A stretch of DNA of 64,000 bases from the NCBI GenBank assembly GCA_002307375.1, contig NTJI01000002.1, positions 496,001-560,000 of the forward strand. Direction: 5' to 3'. The position numbers and the translations under genes were made by a program. Shown piece by piece: positions 31,583-53,907 of the stretch (the first letter of the stretch is position 1; every line of letters starts with the position of its first letter). The notes beneath the pieces are model-generated. The model did no database searches. It had not been told where the DNA came from and worked only from the letters and a program-made list of their open reading frames with translations. This DNA is from Lysobacteraceae bacterium NML93-0399. Lineage in GTDB: Bacteria > Pseudomonadota > Gammaproteobacteria > Xanthomonadales > Xanthomonadaceae.

Positions 31583-31888
31583 CCACGCAGACAGCCTGCG
31601 CGGTTGCCGCTGTGCGCATCCACGCGTCTCCCGCTCCGGCGGGAGGCGCTGGCGATCTGCAATGATTCTGCAGACGTCTGCATCTGCACGCCGCACCGGG
31701 ATCGCGCGCGAGCGCGCTCCTGCAGGGCACCGGGCATATCGGCCCGAGGTGTAGCGGCCACCTGCACGCTGGGAGCGGTTTTGTCCCGCTGACGGCGTCG
31801 CCTGCATCGGTATGTCCACCGCCGCGCACATGCCGCACGGCGCGCGGCATCGGTGAATTATGCTGCCGCCTCATGGATGGAGATCGGC
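31583..31888. other. Intergenic region with a solitary repeat arm
   Basis: About 300 bases after the aminotransferase gene. It contains a single arm of the REP-like repeat (31701-31724) and no recognisable gene. A GTG-initiated extension of the next gene (from 31853) is possible but lacks a ribosome site. Confidence 0.5.
31701..31724. repeat. Single arm of the REP-like repeat
   Basis: ATCGCGCGCGAGCGCGCTCC followed by TGCA matches the right arm of the full repeats at 41045-42281. No left arm is found within 100 bases. Confidence 0.6.
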
Positions 31889-40360: not shown

Positions 40361-40993
40361 ATGAAGACCATCGAAGTCCGCCACCCGCTGGTACAGCACA
40401 AGCTCGGCCTGATGCGCCGCGCCGACAACAGCACCAAGACCTTCCGCGAACTCTCGGCCGAAGTGGCGACGCTGCTGACCTACGAGGCCACGGCAGACCT
40501 TGAAACCGAGGACGCCTCCGTCGACGGCTGGGCCGGCCCGGTGCAGGTGCGCCGCATCAAGGGCCGCAAGATCACCCTCGTGCCGATCCTGCGCGCGGGC
40601 ATCGGCATGCTGCCGGGCGTGCTGGAACTCATTCCCGCGGCCAAGGTCAGCGTGGTTGGCATCAAGCGCGACGAAGATTCGCTCGAAGCGGTGCCCTACT
40701 ATGAGAACCTGGTCGGCGACATGGCCGACCGCACCGCGCTGATCCTCGACCCGATGCTGGCCACCGGCGGCACGCTGATCGCCACGGTCTCGATGCTCAA
40801 GGCCGCCGGCGCGAGCCGGATCAAGGGCCTGTTCCTGGTGGCGGCGCCGGAGGGACTGAAGGCGCTGGAAGCCGTGCATCCCGACGTCGAGGTGTATACC
40901 GCTTCGATCGACGAGCGCCTCAACGAGAAGGGCTACATCCTCCCCGGCCTCGGCGATGCCGGCGACAAGATCTTCGGCACGCGCGTCGACTGA
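40361..40993 (+). CDS. upp: Uracil phosphoribosyltransferase
   Basis: A 210-residue pyrimidine-salvage enzyme making UMP from uracil and PRPP. Present are [13 protein letters not shown] at the start, [20 protein letters not shown], the PRPP-binding loop [20 protein letters not shown], and the uracil-binding [22 protein letters not shown] at the C terminus. Length is standard (about 208-210). MKTIEVRHP is chosen as start; an ATG four codons upstream (40349) is possible. Monocistronic, with a repeat array downstream. Confidence 0.95.
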
Positions 40994-41044
40994 CCTGCGA
41001 CGCGCGAGGTCCCAACGCGCCTTGCACGGCCCCCGTCGCCTCCC

Positions 41045-41425
41045 TGTAGAAGCACGCTCGCGCGCGATGAATCCTTGCCAGGAATGCCCATCGCGCGCAA
41101 GCGGCTCCTACACGCCGCAGCACGCGCATCGCAACGGAAGTCCGAACAACGCACAGCGCGCAATCGCCAGCCGCCAAGGACACGAGCCGCACGTCTCCCC
41201 TGTAGGAGCGCGCTCGCGCGCGATGAAGCCTTACCGGGAATGCCCCATCGCGCGCAAGCGCGCTCCTACACGCCACGGCACGCGCATCGCGCAAGAGAAG
41301 ACCGGCCAACTCGCAGCGCGCAATCGCCAGGCCGCCAAGGACACGAGCCGCGCGTCTCCCCTGTAGAAGCGCGCTCGCGCGCGATGAGCCCTACCCGGAA
41401 TGCCTCATCGCGCAAACCCGCTCCA
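41045..41425. repeat. Array of three REP-like elements with conserved spacers (array 1)
   Basis: Three bipartite palindromic units at 41045-41112, 41201-41270 and 41362-41425, starting 156 and 161 bases apart. Each reads TGTAG(A/G)AGC(A/G)CGCTCGCG...GGAATGCC...GCGCGCAAGCGCGCTCCTAC. The intervening spacers are also related (AGCGCGCAATCGCCAG, then GGACACGAGCCGC in each). The third unit has a degenerate right arm that abuts the MAPEG stop codon. REP/BIME-type; probably mRNA 3'-end hairpins. Confidence 0.85.
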
Positions 41426-41427
41426 TG

Positions 41428-41835
41428 TCACGCCCCGAGCATCGCCCCGGCAACGAAGCGCCAGATGCCGACGCCCGCCATGGCCGCGAGCGTGACGAAG
41501 GTCAGCAACGCGCCGCTGAAGCGGCCGAACGAGTAACCCGCCGATCCGCCGAGCCCGATCGCATGCAGCACGCGCGCGAGCAACAACGCGATGCCGAACG
41601 TCCACAGCAGCTTGGTGTGGATCGCCGCCAGTTCCAGAAGCGCGAGCATCAGCAGCGCCAGCGGCACGTACTCGCCGAAATTGCCGTGTACGCGCATCTT
41701 GCGGGTCAGCACGGCATCGCCCCCGGTTCCGACGCCGATCTTGTGCACATTGCGGTGCAGAACTACGCGCAGGGAGAGCACCAGGTAAAGCAGCACATGC
41801 AGGGCGGCGATCAGCAGCGAGATGCGGGGCGTCAT
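41428..41835 (-). CDS. MAPEG family membrane protein
   Basis: A 135-residue, four-helix membrane protein of the MAPEG family (membrane-associated proteins in eicosanoid and glutathione metabolism). Diagnostic features are KIGVGTGGDAVLTRKMRVHG in the first loop, NFGEYVPLALLMLALLELAA, and ALLLARVLHAIGLGG. Bacterial members may have glutathione-dependent activity; here the function is unknown. It sits between two arrays of palindromic repeats, and a decayed copy of its 3' end lies at 42284-42372. Confidence 0.88.
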   Translation of the reverse strand: MTPRISLLIAALHVLLYLVLSLRVVLHRNVHKIGVGTGGDAVLTRKMRVHGNFGEYVPLALLMLALLELAAIHTKLLWTFGIALLLARVLHAIGLGGSAGYSFGRFSGALLTFVTLAAMAGVGIWRFVAGAMLGA

Positions 41836-41967
41836 CGTGGTGGACCTGAGCAGCGGGAATGTCGCGGAGTGTGCAGCAATCCGGCGCGTCGCCGCACGAA
41901 AACCGCGGCAGAAACCCGACCGTCAAGCAGCGCGCAACCCGCCTCAGACACGAACCGCGCGACATCC

Positions 41968-42281
41968 TGTAGGAGCGCGCTTGCGCGCGATGAGGCCCTG
42001 CCGGGAATGCCCGACCGCGCGCAAGCGCGCTCCTACATGCGTGGCACGTGCATCGCGCGAGACCACTGGACCGAAGCGCAGCGCGCAACCTTTAGCCCGC
42101 AACGAATACGAACCGCGACATCCCTGTAGGAGCAAGCATCGCGCGAGACACTTGACCGAAACACAGCGCGCAATCCTTAGCCCGCCCCGGACACGAACCG
42201 CGCGACATCCCTGTAGGAGCGCGCTCGCGCGCGATGAAGCCTTGCCGGGAATGCCCGATCGCGCGCAAGCGCGCTCCTACA
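41968..42281. repeat. Second array of REP-like elements (array 2)
   Basis: Complete units at 41968-42036 and 42212-42281 with a truncated unit between them (42125-42148, TGTAGGAGCAAGCATCGCGC followed by GAGA). The truncated copy keeps the left arm and jumps directly into spacer-type sequence. The spacers (CAGCGCGCAA...TTAGCCCGC...ACACGAACCGCG) are shared within this array and related to array 1. The final unit abuts the decayed MAPEG fragment in the same way that the last unit of array 1 abuts the intact gene. Confidence 0.85.
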
Positions 42282-42283
42282 TG

Positions 42284-42372
42284 TCACCCGCGAGCATCAA
42301 CCTGGCGAGGAAGCGACAGATATCCACGACGGCCGACAAGGTCAGCAGCGCCTCCAAAGTGGCCGACCGGGC
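42284..42372 (-). pseudogene. Decayed duplicate of the MAPEG gene 3' end
   Basis: The + strand CATGTCAC...GAGCATC...AAGCG.CAGAT...AAGGTCAGCA.CGC...GGCCGA follows 41424-41530 base for base with scattered substitutions and about 15 deleted bases. Translated on the minus strand the fragment gives ALLTLSAVVDICRF...LARLML, matching ALLTFVTLAAM...IWRFVAGAML of the intact protein. Homology stops near 42372, so only the last ~30 codons remain, and the stop codon is shifted out of frame. It is a remnant of a duplicated repeat-plus-gene block, not a functional gene. Confidence 0.72.
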
Positions 42373-42480
42373 TTGGCACGCCTGAAGGCTCGAATTTCGA
42401 GAACGAAAAAGCCAGGCAACAGGAACGGCGGAGCAGAGCAAGAGCAACGGCAGCAACGCATCAGGTCGATGCCGAAGAAT

Positions 42481-42565
42481 CGTCATTCCCGCGAAAGCGG
42501 GAATCCAGTGCCTTGCCGACGACCAAACGTAAAGACGCTGGCTTCCCGCTTTCGCGGGAATGACG
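42481..42565. repeat. Inverted pair of CGTCATTCCCGCG-type repeats
   Basis: A 28-base sequence at 42481-42508 beginning CGTCATTCCCGCGAAAGCGG is repeated in inverse orientation at 42538-42565 (starting CTGGCTTCCCGC) with a single mismatch, separated by 29 bases. Each copy is itself a near palindrome (TTCCCGCGAAAGCGGGAA). This TCATTCCCGCGAAAGCGGGA type is a common dispersed repeat in several beta- and gammaproteobacteria and may form a large hairpin or a small non-autonomous mobile element. Confidence 0.8.
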
Positions 42566-42625
42566 GTGCGGCGGTTCTCGAAAGACCGGCCGATTCCCCG
42601 GTGCGTCTAACGCACACCGGAAGCC

Positions 42626-44404
42626 TCAGCGCGCAGTCGCCTCCACCTTCGCCGACCCCACCGAATTGCGCGGGTCACTGCCACCGGTCAGCGTACCGGC
42701 CGCGCGGTTCCATTCGATCGTCTGCAGATTGCCCCAGACGTGGCTGGAGCCACGTCCACCCGCGGCACGGTCGCCCGGCAGGTCGACGGTGTGGCCCAGC
42801 GCACGCAGCCTGGCTGCAGTGTCGGGCGAAAACGCATCCGACTCGGCCTGGATCCGGTCGGGCATCCACTGGTGGTGATAGCGCGGCAACGCGGCAACGC
42901 TTTGCGCGTCGAGGCCGGCGTCGTAGCCGAGGATGCCCAGCAGCACCATCGTGATGATGCGGCTGCCGCCGGGCGTGCCGAGCACGGCGACGCGGTCGTC
43001 GGAGACGAGGAAGGTCGGCGTCATCGAACTCAGCGGACGCTTGCCGGGCTTGGGCGCGTTGGCGTCGAACCCCATCACGCCGAACGCATTCGGCACGCCG
43101 GGCTGCAGCGCGAAGTCGTCCATTTCGTTGTTGAGCAGTACGCCGGTGCCGGGCGCGACCAGGCCGCTGCCGAACAACAGGTTGACCGTCTGCGTGACCG
43201 CAGCGCGGTTGCCGGCGGCATCGACGATCGAGAAGTGCGTGGTCTCCTCGTCCTCGAGCGGCGTCGGGTCGCCCGACAGCAGGTCGCTCGGCGTCGCCTT
43301 TGCAGGATTGATCGTCGCGCGCAGGCCGGCCGCATAGTCCGGGCTCAGCAGCGTGCGCTGCGGAATCTTCACGAAGTCCGGATCGCCCAGATAGAAGGTG
43401 CGGTCGCGGAACGCGCGACGCATCGATTCGACGACCAGGTGCGTACGCGCGGCATCGTCGAGCTTGCTCAGGTCATACGGCTCGAGGATCTGCAGCATCT
43501 GCGCCATCGCGATGCCGCCCGACGACGGCGGCGGCGCGGTGACCACGTCCCAGTCGTGATAGCGGAAGCGGATCGGCGCGCGCTCGGCCACCCGGTAGCC
43601 GGCCAGATCGGCGAGCGTCCACTCGCCGCCTTCGGCATTGACCCCGGCAACGAGCTTCTCGCCGGTCTCGCCGCCGTAGAAGCCGTCGAAGCCACGCTCG
43701 GCCAGCAGCCGTAGCGTGTGCGCCAGTTCCGGTTGGCGGAAGATGTCGCCCTCTTCCGGCGCGCGGCCGTTGGCGAGAAACACCGCGCGAGTGCCCGGGT
43801 AACGCTCCATCACCTCGCGACGCGACTGGTAGCCACGCGCGAAACGCGCATAGACCGGAAAGCCTTCCTCGGCGATGCGGATCGCCGGCGCCAGCGACTG
43901 CGACAGCGGCAGCGCGCCGTACGTCTCGGCGATGTGCACGAACGCCGCCGGCAGGCCGGGAATGCCCGCAGACCACGGACCGTTCTCGGCGCGGTCGCGG
44001 TCGAAGCTGCCATCGGCCTTGCGATAGCGGTCCGAGTGCGCGCTGGCCGCCGCGGTCTCGCGCGCGTCGACGAAAATGTCGCGGCCGGACTTCGCGTCGT
44101 GCAGCAGGAAGAAACCGCCGCCGCCCAGGCCCGAGGAAATGGGTTCGACCACCGACAGCACGGCCGAGGTCGCGATTGCCGCGTCGAAGGCGTTGCCGCC
44201 TTCGCGCATCACCTGCAGGCCGGCCTCGGTGGCCAGCGCATGCGCCGATGCCACCGCATTGCCCGGCGGCGTGGTCTGGGCCGTCGTCGCGACCGGGGCC
44301 TCGGCAGGCCGCACCTCGCGCGCGCACGAGGGCGCGACGGCCAGCAACAACAACGACAGCAGCAGCGCAGATGCGCCGCTGAACGCAGAACGGAAGCGCG
44401 TCAT
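42626..44404 (-). CDS. ggt: Gamma-glutamyltransferase
   Basis: A 592-residue periplasmic/secreted Ntn-hydrolase that cleaves gamma-glutamyl bonds such as in glutathione. After an export signal (ALLLSLLLLAVAPSCA, possibly a lipobox) comes the large subunit (GGNAFDAAIATSAVLSVVEP, ISSGLGGGGFFLLHD). The self-cleavage site TTHFSIVD near residue 388 supplies the catalytic Thr of the small subunit, followed by VLLNNEMDDF and RPLSSMTPTF, and GTPGGSRIITMVL. Its ATG overlaps the ferredoxin stop (ATGA). Frames reaching 44737 run through the ferredoxin gene. Confidence 0.93.
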   Translation of the reverse strand: MTRFRSAFSGASALLLSLLLLAVAPSCAREVRPAEAPVATTAQTTPPGNAVASAHALATEAGLQVMREGGNAFDAAIATSAVLSVVEPISSGLGGGGFFLLHDAKSGRDIFVDARETAAASAHSDRYRKADGSFDRDRAENGPWSAGIPGLPAAFVHIAETYGALPLSQSLAPAIRIAEEGFPVYARFARGYQSRREVMERYPGTRAVFLANGRAPEEGDIFRQPELAHTLRLLAERGFDGFYGGETGEKLVAGVNAEGGEWTLADLAGYRVAERAPIRFRYHDWDVVTAPPPSSGGIAMAQMLQILEPYDLSKLDDAARTHLVVESMRRAFRDRTFYLGDPDFVKIPQRTLLSPDYAAGLRATINPAKATPSDLLSGDPTPLEDEETTHFSIVDAAGNRAAVTQTVNLLFGSGLVAPGTGVLLNNEMDDFALQPGVPNAFGVMGFDANAPKPGKRPLSSMTPTFLVSDDRVAVLGTPGGSRIITMVLLGILGYDAGLDAQSVAALPRYHHQWMPDRIQAESDAFSPDTAARLRALGHTVDLPGDRAAGGRGSSHVWGNLQTIEWNRAAGTLTGGSDPRNSVGSAKVEATAR

Positions 44405-51184: not shown

Positions 51185-51919
51185 ATGTCGTCATCGCCAA
51201 CCGGTCACCGGCAGGCCCTGATCTTCGCCGCAGGTCTGGGCGAGCGCATGCGCCCGCTCACCGACGCCACGCCCAAACCATTACTGGTCGCAGGCGGCAA
51301 GCCGCTGATCGTCTGGCACCTGGAGAAGCTCGCCGCATGCGGCGTGCGCGACGTGGTGGTCAACATTTCCTGGCTCGCCGGCATGTTCGCGCCGGCGCTC
51401 GGCGACGGCAGCCGCTGGGGATTGCGCCTGCACTGGTCGCACGAGGGCGCGCCGCCGCTGGAAACCGGGGGCGGCATGCTGCATGCGCTGCACGAACTCG
51501 ACGATGCGCCCTTCATCGCGGTCAATGGCGACATCTGGACCGATTTCGATTTCGCGCGCCTGCCGGCCGCACCTACGGGCGATGCGCACCTGGTGCTGGT
51601 CGACAACCCCGCGCACAACCCTGGCGGCGACTTCGCGCTCGACGGCGCGCGCGTACAGGGCGAAGCTGCGGACCGGCTGACGTTCTCGGGCATCGGCGTC
51701 TATCGCCCGGGTCTGCTCCAGGGCTGGCGCGAGGTCGTCGGCAACGTGCCCGGCGTCGATGCCGAACCTCCGCGTTTCAAGCTTGCCCCGCTGCTGCGCG
51801 CGGCGATGGCGCGCGGTCGCGTCAGTGGCGAGCACCATGCCGGACGCTGGACGGATGTCGGCACGCCGGAGCGGCTTGCCCGACTCGATGCGACGCTGGG
51901 TTCCCCAGCCCGGCGTTGA
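51185..51919 (+). CDS. murU: N-acetylmuramate 1-phosphate uridylyltransferase-type nucleotidyltransferase
   Basis: A 244-residue sugar-phosphate nucleotidyltransferase. The N-terminal signature FAAGLGERMRPLTDATPKPL (about residues 14-33), INGDIW-type VNGDIWTDFDF, ETGGGMLHAL and a C-terminal WTDVGTPERLARLD match MurU, which makes UDP-MurNAc in the peptidoglycan recycling route that bypasses fosfomycin-sensitive MurA. The partner kinase gene amgK usually lies next to murU but is not here. A glucose-1-phosphate transferase is the alternative reading. Confidence 0.8.
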   Translation: MSSSPTGHRQALIFAAGLGERMRPLTDATPKPLLVAGGKPLIVWHLEKLAACGVRDVVVNISWLAGMFAPALGDGSRWGLRLHWSHEGAPPLETGGGMLHALHELDDAPFIAVNGDIWTDFDFARLPAAPTGDAHLVLVDNPAHNPGGDFALDGARVQGEAADRLTFSGIGVYRPGLLQGWREVVGNVPGVDAEPPRFKLAPLLRAAMARGRVSGEHHAGRWTDVGTPERLARLDATLGSPARR

Positions 51920-52018
51920 CGGGCCGGACGGCTTCAGGCGCCGGGCGCTGGCGGCCGCGCCATCGCGACATCACCCAAGGCGCTCACGCCCGGCGGTTCG
52001 ACTGCCGCGCATCGCGGT

Positions 52019-52720
52019 TCAATCCAGCGACAGCACCTGGCGCACGAAGGGCACAGTGAGACGCCGTTGCGAGGCCAGCGACGCGTGGTCCAGCCGGTCG
52101 AGCAAGGCGGTCAGCGCCGGCAAGTCGCGGTCGACCCGACGCAACAGCCAGTCGATCGTCGCGGCATCGACCTGCAGGCCACGGCGTTCGGCGCGCAGGC
52201 GCAGCAGTTCGTGGCGGCCGGCATCGTCGAGTGCGGGCAACGGCACGCGCACGCACTGGCCCAGCCGCGAACGCAGGTCCGGCAGCGCCAGCGTCAGTGC
52301 GTCGGGCGCCGCGGACGCGGTGTAGAACACGCTGCGCCCCGCATCGTGCAGACGATTGTGCAGATCGAACAGCGCGATCTCGTCGTCGCGATCGCCGGCG
52401 ATCGCATCGATATCGTCGACCGCCACCAGATCGTGCGCCTCCAGGCCCTGGACCGCATCGCGCAGGCGCCCGGCAACGCTGCGCAGCGGCAGATAGACCG
52501 CGCGCCGACCGAGCCGGTCGGCTTCGGCGCACAGCCCGATCGCCAGATGGGTCTTGCCGGTACCCGGGCCGCCCTCGACATAAAGACCGCGCCGCGCGCC
52601 GGCGAGGGCGAAGTCGCGCAATTGCGGCAGCAGCGCCGGCGCGTCGGCGACGAAGGTGTCCAGCCGCTGGTCCGGCGGATACCGGAGCGCCAGCGGCAGC
52701 TGGGGAGACGGACTGCTCAT
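52019..52720 (-). CDS. hda: DnaA regulatory inactivator Hda
   Basis: A 233-residue AAA+ protein related to the DnaA ATPase domain but lacking its DNA-binding C terminus. The N-terminal clamp-binding-like motif QLPLALRYP, Walker A EGGPGTGKTH near residue 52, Walker B LVAVDDIDAIAG and the DLRSRLGQC segment are visible. It works with the sliding clamp to convert DnaA-ATP to DnaA-ADP and prevents re-initiation. The permease gene lies just upstream on the same strand (8 bases). Confidence 0.9.
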   Translation of the reverse strand: MSSPSPQLPLALRYPPDQRLDTFVADAPALLPQLRDFALAGARRGLYVEGGPGTGKTHLAIGLCAEADRLGRRAVYLPLRSVAGRLRDAVQGLEAHDLVAVDDIDAIAGDRDDEIALFDLHNRLHDAGRSVFYTASAAPDALTLALPDLRSRLGQCVRVPLPALDDAGRHELLRLRAERRGLQVDAATIDWLLRRVDRDLPALTALLDRLDHASLASQRRLTVPFVRQVLSLD

Positions 52721-52728
52721 GCGGAAGA

Positions 52729-53907
52729 TCAGGTCGCGTCCGCGCCCTTGGTCGCGTCGGTGAGGATGACCGACGGACGATGCGCGGTCCCGGTGATCTC
52801 GATTTCCGGCTTGTCGCCTGCGTACAGGCGACTGTGCGTGTAGCGCTCGTGGGCGAAGCGCAGCAGCACGTTGGCCACCGCCGCCACGGGCAAGGCCAGC
52901 AACATGCCGAGGAAGCCGAACAGCTGACCACCGGCGAGCACGGCGAAGATCACCGCGACCGGATGCAGGCCGATGCGGTCGCCGACCAGGCGCGGCGTGA
53001 GCACGTAGCTTTCGACCAGCTGGCCGATGGTGAACACCACGCCGATCAGGATCAGCAGCTGCCAGTCGAAGCCCTGCGCCTGCACGATCGCCGCGATCAG
53101 CGCCAACGCGATGCCGACCGTCGCGCCCAGATAGGGAATGAAACTGATCAGACCGGCGACCATGCCGATGAGCAGACCCAGCCGCAGGCCAACCAACGAC
53201 ATGCCCACCGCGTAGATCGCGCCCTGCCCCAGCATCACCAGGAACTGGCCGCGCAGGAATCCGCCCAGCGATTCGCTGGTTTCACGCGCCAGGCGTGTCG
53301 CGGTGTCGATGTGGTCGCGCGGGATCAGTGCGGCGACGCGCTCGACCAACAGGTCCCAGTCGCGCATGAAATAGAACGCCAGGATCGGCACCAGCACCAG
53401 ATTGATGACCAGCGTGAGAATCGCGAAACCCGAACGCGACGCGTAGGCCAGCACGGTCGCTGCCACCCCACCGGCCTGCTGCCAGTGCTCGCGCACCAGC
53501 TGGATCAGGCGTTCGGTGTCCAGCCACGACACCACCTCGTAACCGGTGCGCTGTTCGACCCACGGCAGCGCCGTTCCGATCACCCAGTCGCGGTACTGCG
53601 GCAGGCTGTCGATCAGGGTCACGATCTGCCGCTCGATCATCGGCACCAGGATGATCAGCACCAATGCCAGCAGCAGTGTCATCAGCGCGAACACCAGCGT
53701 CACCGCCACGGCGCGCGAGCGGCCGCGGCGTTCGAGGCGATCGACCAGGGGGTCCCCCAGCCAGCCGAGCAGCAGAGCGAGCACGAACGGCGTGAGGATC
53801 GGTCCCAGCAGCCAGATCACCCAGCCGACCGCGAAGGCCACCAGACCCCATTGCAGGCGCTTGAGAAAACGCGCGACGTCGGCGTTCGCGGGATCGGTCT
53901 GGAGCAT
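52729..53907 (-). CDS. AI-2E family (PerM-like) permease
   Basis: A 392-residue polytopic membrane protein of the AI-2E transporter/PerM family, with about eight hydrophobic segments. Characteristic are FVLALLLGWLGDPLVDRLER, a long hydrophilic loop with SLPQYRDWVIGTALPWVEQ and the ENP-like C-terminal half (GMSLVGLRLGLLIGMVAGLI, PYLGATVGIALALIAAIVQA, LTPRLVGDRIGLHPVAVIFA). The transported substrate is not known. Co-transcribed with hda. Confidence 0.88.
   Translation of the reverse strand: MLQTDPANADVARFLKRLQWGLVAFAVGWVIWLLGPILTPFVLALLLGWLGDPLVDRLERRGRSRAVAVTLVFALMTLLLALVLIILVPMIERQIVTLIDSLPQYRDWVIGTALPWVEQRTGYEVVSWLDTERLIQLVREHWQQAGGVAATVLAYASRSGFAILTLVINLVLVPILAFYFMRDWDLLVERVAALIPRDHIDTATRLARETSESLGGFLRGQFLVMLGQGAIYAVGMSLVGLRLGLLIGMVAGLISFIPYLGATVGIALALIAAIVQAQGFDWQLLILIGVVFTIGQLVESYVLTPRLVGDRIGLHPVAVIFAVLAGGQLFGFLGMLLALPVAAVANVLLRFAHERYTHSRLYAGDKPEIEITGTAHRPSVILTDATKGADAT

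Follow-up and report, generated by a model that had tools for sequence, protein, structure and literature searches.

REPIN arrays on both sides of a MAPEG-family gene and a probable history of their amplification and duplication

Analysis of a 64,000-nucleotide stretch of contig NTJI01000002.1 (hereafter the window) revealed two short tandem arrays of REPINs, inverted pairs of repetitive extragenic palindromic (REP) sequences, located on either side of a MAPEG-family gene. The arrays are of a well-known, previously described kind that is common in this genome. They can probably be explained as ordinary REPIN arrays formed by insertion, tandem reiteration, a larger duplication and separate changes of the units, and this explanation needs no locus-specific function. 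The new element is the duplication history of the two arrays, as best read from the sequence. Spacers that these two arrays share with each other and with no other locus sampled, together with a remnant of the MAPEG gene end, point to a segmental duplication rather than independent amplifications. The gene would thus be bracketed because one array and the adjoining gene end were apparently copied to its other side, and the bracketing would reflect the history of the locus rather than the design of a module.

Structure of the two arrays

The upp and MAPEG genes are convergent; the left array lies between them, and the right array lies upstream of MAPEG. The features of the locus, in window coordinates, are as follows:

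40361-40993, + strand: upp
41045-41112: REPIN L1, a pair of inverted GTAG-type REPs whose right arm lacks one base; RNA fold -38.4 kcal/mol, z -6.4
41113-41200: left-array spacer 1 (Lsp1), 86% identity with left spacer 2
41201-41270: REPIN L2, intact; fold z -8.4
41271-41361: left-array spacer 2 (Lsp2), related to the other spacers
41362-~41430: REPIN L3, decayed right arm, abuts the MAPEG 3' end; fold z -1.2
41428-41835, - strand: MAPEG-family gene between the arrays (PF01124, 71.8 bits, cut-off 23.4)
41885-41967: right spacer 0, spacer-like sequence ahead of R1; matches both left spacers better than any of 2000 controls when anchored at its 3' end
41968-42037: REPIN R1, intact; fold z -8.4
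42038-42124: right-array spacer 1, from spacer alignments
42125-42139: R2, 9 nt from the start of a REPIN arm fused to spacer, hairpin lost; z +0.4
42140-42211: right-array spacer 2, from spacer alignments
42212-42281: REPIN R3, intact; fold z -7.8 on one strand and -9.0 on the other
42282-42385, - strand: putative decayed copy of the MAPEG 3' end, with weaker collinear similarity to about 42480
end at 42626, - strand: ggt

The interval from the MAPEG remnant to the end of ggt also contains a CGTC-type palindrome pair resembling dRS3 (ATTCCC-N8-GGGAAT; 42481-42565).

The element measures about 70 bases and consists of TGTAGGAGCGCGCT(C/T)GCGCGCGATG, an asymmetric middle and then an inverted copy; it has the GTAG head and GC-rich palindrome of a GTAG-type REP. 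With up to 3 mismatches allowed, the core GTAGGAGCGCGCTCGCGCGCGA occurs 11 times in the window, 8 of them in the two arrays, against 0.02 expected from shuffles. Inverted pairs able to form one long hairpin are present in L1, L2, R1 and R3 (-38 to -54 kcal/mol, z -6.4 to -8.4) and absent from L3 and R2. A search profile derived from the strict 60-70-base copies in the fetched loci identified five elements in the array region, and Rfam at the gathering threshold gave no matches in the window. A previous reading of the sequence without database searches (the sequence-only reading) had counted six palindromes, three per side; the repeats are real, but five were recovered by profile and four fold strongly, L3 being decayed and the hairpin of R2 gone. 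The period of about 156-161 bases reported there agrees with the steps of the left array (156 and 161) and with the R1-R2 step (157) and fails for R2-R3 (87). By arithmetic on the steps, the right array falls short by 70 bases, the length of one REPIN. Three further sites in the window had been taken for dispersed single REPs. Those near 656 and 774 are in fact a close pair of REPIN-like elements (661-718 and 775-824, 114 apart), whereas 31702-31723 is indeed a lone REP half.

The spacers are related to each other. Global identity is 86% between Lsp1 and Lsp2, 66-75% among the three right spacers and 61-70% between left and right spacers. As a cross-locus null we used 3000 random spacer pairs of unmatched lengths (mean 0.41, 99% point 0.62, maximum 0.66); four of the six left/right pairs lie above its 99% point, the other two (62 and 61%) falling on it and slightly below, so that global identity alone would not single out these two. 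With the alignment anchored at the next element, all six left/right pairs scored above all 2000 controls. In the all-versus-all comparison of 94 spacers of 30-260 bases, 56 of the 65 within-array pairs matched at E <= 1e-3, and the only three between-array matches were all between the left and right arrays of the window. Because the spacers inside each array are related, the repeated unit is the REPIN plus its spacer, as the sequence-only reading had held; its alternative outcome, spacers that prove unrelated on full alignment, was not what we found. A CRISPR array was rejected as a candidate, since its spacers would be mutually unrelated and those within the arrays are related copies.

Origin of the bracketing

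On its right side, the right array is followed by 100 bases similar to the MAPEG 3' end, in a place and orientation that fit a duplicated array-plus-gene segment. Aligned with the MAPEG end, this remnant scored 26, a value reached by 0 of 828 and 0 of 7474 controls (best 25). The reciprocal test against the remnant gave 25-28 from three nearby starts, with none of 4970 controls as good (best 17). By blastn against the fetched loci, the first 53 bp of the remnant are 75.9% identical to the window's own MAPEG gene (E 7e-4), and 32 bases further along it match the MAPEG gene of a relative (L013) at 82% (E 0.009). The remnant is separable only by alignment anchored at the array edge, an anchor picked after the similarity had been noticed. 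Unanchored alignment with the whole MAPEG gene gave a score of 33, above 2000 shuffles (best 30), with 5 of 1268 window controls higher (best 36), and the protein profile gave 2.3 bits on the remnant, chance pieces of the window reaching up to 6.9 bits. The remnant is short and no complete second MAPEG copy was seen to the right of the array; the duplication is thus documented for the gene end only.

The spacers themselves were also considered as copies of the MAPEG end. This first looked possible (score 17, threshold 13), and larger controls gave it no support: 62 to 207 of 4970 controls were equally good for the left spacers, and 661 to 1450 of 4970 for right spacer 1.

Relatives retain the order ferredoxin-ggt-(MBL-like ORF)-MAPEG-upp, whole or in part. 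In 13 relative loci with ggt, MAPEG and upp, the REP arm motif of the window's family was not found between ggt and upp; two of these loci (L012 and L019) probably represent one genome, and upp lies about 2 to 3 kb from MAPEG in L013, L014 and L017. The additional ORF, which we take to be metallo-beta-lactamase-like (MBL-like) from a motif spotted by eye, was observed between ggt and MAPEG in L011, L012, L013, L014, L019, L020, L023 and L024; it is absent from this place in the window, L018, L021, L022 and L025. As a source of the MAPEG-ggt interval of the window, the relatives' gene was unconvincing (best match E 0.056).

An alternative, in line with the sequence-only reading, is that two independent REPIN insertions flank the MAPEG gene, each tandemly amplified. 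Many loci of this genome have indeed been amplified independently, each with a spacer of its own. The alternative is strongly disfavoured already by the shared spacers, as judged from their alignment: left and right spacers are related and account for the sole between-array matches among the 94. The MAPEG-end remnant to the right of R3 also speaks against it, and we consider independent insertions very improbable.

The preferred reading, a segmental duplication, suggests the following history: (i) a REPIN of the family that adjoins the gene for a REP-associated tyrosine transposase (RAYT) would have landed between the convergent upp and MAPEG genes, probably in this lineage, as the REPIN is present here and no such pair occurs at the same place in the relatives examined, (ii) the REPIN with about 90 bases of adjoining DNA would have been reiterated in tandem, as indicated by the related spacers, possibly by slippage, unequal recombination or RAYT-primed copying, (iii) a larger duplication, which took in at least ~100 bases of the MAPEG 3' end, would have put a second array on the far side of the MAPEG gene, and (iv) the units would have diverged separately, with R2 losing its hairpin and one arm of L3 decaying. 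For the third step, the shared spacers and the remnant are best read as a sign that the right array arose together with the MAPEG-end copy, most simply through tandem duplication of array and gene, the second gene then decaying. In enteric bacteria, recombination mediated by REPs can produce duplications. Our literature search found nothing that connects repetitive extragenic palindromes with gene duplication and unequal crossing.

REPIN arrays in the genome and genus, and formation of the units

The full-REPIN pattern has 130 matches in the genome, and its reversed control has none. We fetched 60 loci as a non-random sample, which covers all pattern matches of contig 1 up to base 1,790,057, plus loci L078 and L105, and, for the other contigs, loci picked from the best matches of a separate search. 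The family thus has many copies, mainly intergenic (56 of the 60 sampled loci lie outside heuristically called genes). Of the sources, the window's left array among them, 51 contain one spacer or more and 32 contain two or more; in 28 of these 32, that array included, at least one pair of neighbouring spacers is related (above the cross-locus 99% point). Among adjacent spacer pairs with lengths of 12-260 bases, 44 of 49 lie above the cross-locus 99% point. The period is locus-specific: five elements are spaced at 85 bases, five at 118-120, five at 178-191 and four at 216-217. Tandem amplification of REPIN plus spacer, as proposed by the sequence-only reading, is supported by these comparisons for the window and for most of the sampled loci that have several REPINs. 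The accompanying claim that the locus is unlike the other REPs of the genome did not survive, because, of the 65 strict elements in the contig-1 loci, 38 lie no more than 300 bases from another strict one. Tandem REPIN-plus-flank units appear to be the usual form among the sampled loci of this genome, which would make it convenient for testing array growth and a possible source of strain-typing loci.

Within the genus, which we assign to Luteimonas from the named relatives, the REPIN pattern is present in 24 of 41 genomes, and the window's genome has the most matches (130, followed by 96 and 92); the pattern is specific for GTAGGAGC arms, and these counts consequently miss other kinds of REP. 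A strict neighbour within 300 bases was found for 11 of 50 elements in genome G047 and for 11 of 50 in G015, in each case among the matches listed (92 and 96 in all, respectively), and for 0 of 42 in G019. The 42 REPINs of G019 mainly have a different core (GTAGGAGCAGCTAYAGCTGC), and a RAYT-family match lies beside one of them. In another species of the genus (L117, 1898-3171), long, related spacers lie between three REPINs that are about 600 bases apart. Among the matches listed by our literature search, no title concerned Luteimonas REPs, and the search found nothing on REPIN with Xanthomonadaceae.

A candidate for the cognate RAYT gene, which the sequence-only reading had proposed to look for, was found by a genome-wide search. 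PF01797 gave a single match at E <= 0.01, within an ORF of 190 aa; this ORF scores 129.1 bits (cut-off 80) against NF047646, the NCBIfam equivalog for REP-associated tyrosine transposases. The gene is flanked by REPs of the same family: five REPINs of period 118-120 on one side and two partial, low-scoring ones on the other. A RAYT-family match in G015 (contig 16, 52212-52448) is flanked by four REPINs, two per side (region 51880-52793).

To characterize the unit further, we searched for a copy of the spacer outside an outer REPIN (99% threshold, spacers of 30-160 bases, which leaves short-spacer arrays such as L049, L050, L066 and L067 outside the set). Such a copy was found on at least one side in 22 of 48 arrays and on neither side in 26; about 1 of 48 would be expected to pass by chance, and some copies are near the threshold. 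The window's own flank match failed larger controls, and the remaining 21 arrays have 24 flank copies. When set against heuristic gene calls, 12 of these copies share at least 20 bases with the 3' end of a neighbouring gene, three overlap a gene start and nine overlap no gene. The clearest case is L103 (1440-2155), with four REPINs of period 216-217, where the spacers repeat the last codons and stop of a DNA-polymerase-IV-like (dinB-like) gene with IMS domains whose ORF ends at the array edge. An amplified unit can thus include the tail of a gene.

The 26 arrays with no outer spacer copy are not predicted by simple slippage of a REPIN plus its flank. They are what REP-bounded modules would predict, and such modules are the basis of a model proposed for BIMEs (PMC2817692), by which RAYT would cut at REPs and the module would be copied by rolling circle and re-ligated. 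The presence of a RAYT gene with adjoining REPs of the same family also fits this model. However, 22 of the 48 arrays pass the outer-copy test on at least one side, where about one false pass is expected (the window's own was not upheld), and two genomes with RAYT-family matches, G004 and G020, have no match to the REPIN pattern. G019, too, has a RAYT-family match, yet none of its 42 REPINs of different core has a neighbour within 300 bases. RAYT-family matches are therefore not coupled to tandem arrays of this REP in every genome. We regard RAYT-driven copying as a possible, although rather doubtful, route; it concerns the mechanism of array growth and not the history of the locus, and it can hold alongside the segmental duplication preferred here.

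A more far-reaching proposal is that REPIN arrays act as an active duplication engine, in which RAYT-dependent copying of REP-bounded modules carries gene ends and occasionally a whole neighbouring gene. If so, arrays would seed gene duplicates, for example of array plus MAPEG. We consider this improbable.

Gene context and relation to known REP systems

By gene context, the 60 REPIN loci comprise 40 between convergent genes, 15 between tandem genes, four inside an ORF and one between divergent genes. Convergent placement is in excess (40 of 56 loci against 9 of the 31 window gene pairs with a gap of at least 60; Fisher p 1.5e-4), with gene orientation taken from a rough codon-composition heuristic that missed upp itself. 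As a by-product of the proposed history, strong RNA hairpins would lie past the 3' ends of upp and MAPEG and, judging from their position, could limit read-through or protect the messages.

One may go further and suppose that the arrays are kept because they act in both directions on the transcript ends of upp, MAPEG and ggt, as terminators or by protecting the mRNA. The mostly convergent placement of the REPIN loci and the strong hairpins are in line with this, as is the position of REPs mostly downstream of genes in the literature (PMC3733652). On the other hand, the gene calls are heuristic and missed upp, and the same placement would result if REPINs did no more than avoid promoters. A scan of 40900-42700 for promoters and terminators gave none of either, with no terminator-like site followed by a T run; moreover, the right array is upstream of MAPEG, and the relatives examined manage without this REP here. 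The placement agrees with that of published REPs and allows a putative transcript-end role, but retention of the arrays for that role is unlikely.

REP pairs reiterated in tandem with flanking DNA are known in Stenotrophomonas, Pseudomonas and other bacteria (PMC2613905; PMC3116915; PMC3733652). The arrays described here, with direct-orientation reiteration of REPIN and flanking DNA, belong to this class. The SMAG elements of Stenotrophomonas maltophilia (PMC2613905) are similarly mono- or dimeric GTAG palindromes tandemly reiterated with flanking tracts, and their unit length also differs between loci (e.g. 50 and 103 bp); they differ in REP sequence and in that unit number was compared across 38 strains, whereas the unit counts of the present arrays come from a single strain. 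GTAG REP families in general (PMC3733652) share the GTAG tag, inverted dimers, tandem reiteration with flank and a location mostly downstream of genes, and REPs are placed there mainly between unidirectional and convergent genes.

In Pseudomonas fluorescens SBW25, REPIN clusters adjoin RAYT genes, as here, and REPIN excisions were observed in sequencing reads; most REPINs of SBW25 are single, in contrast to the 38 of 65 strict elements (contig-1 loci) with a neighbour within 300 bases found here (PMC3116915). Xanthomonas campestris (PMC2817692) is a further close parallel: a REP core listed in its Table 1 is letter-identical to GTAGGAGCGCGCTCGCGCGCGA of the window, the REPs and BIMEs are associated with RAYT, and the great majority of the REPs lie in large, regularly spaced clusters. 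Four BIMEs are reported there with 3' ends of rayt genes captured between REPs, and RAYT-primed rolling-circle copying was modelled for BIMEs. Unlike those rayt ends, the gene ends associated with the present arrays belong to other host genes, MAPEG beside an array in the window and the dinB-like gene in the spacers of L103.
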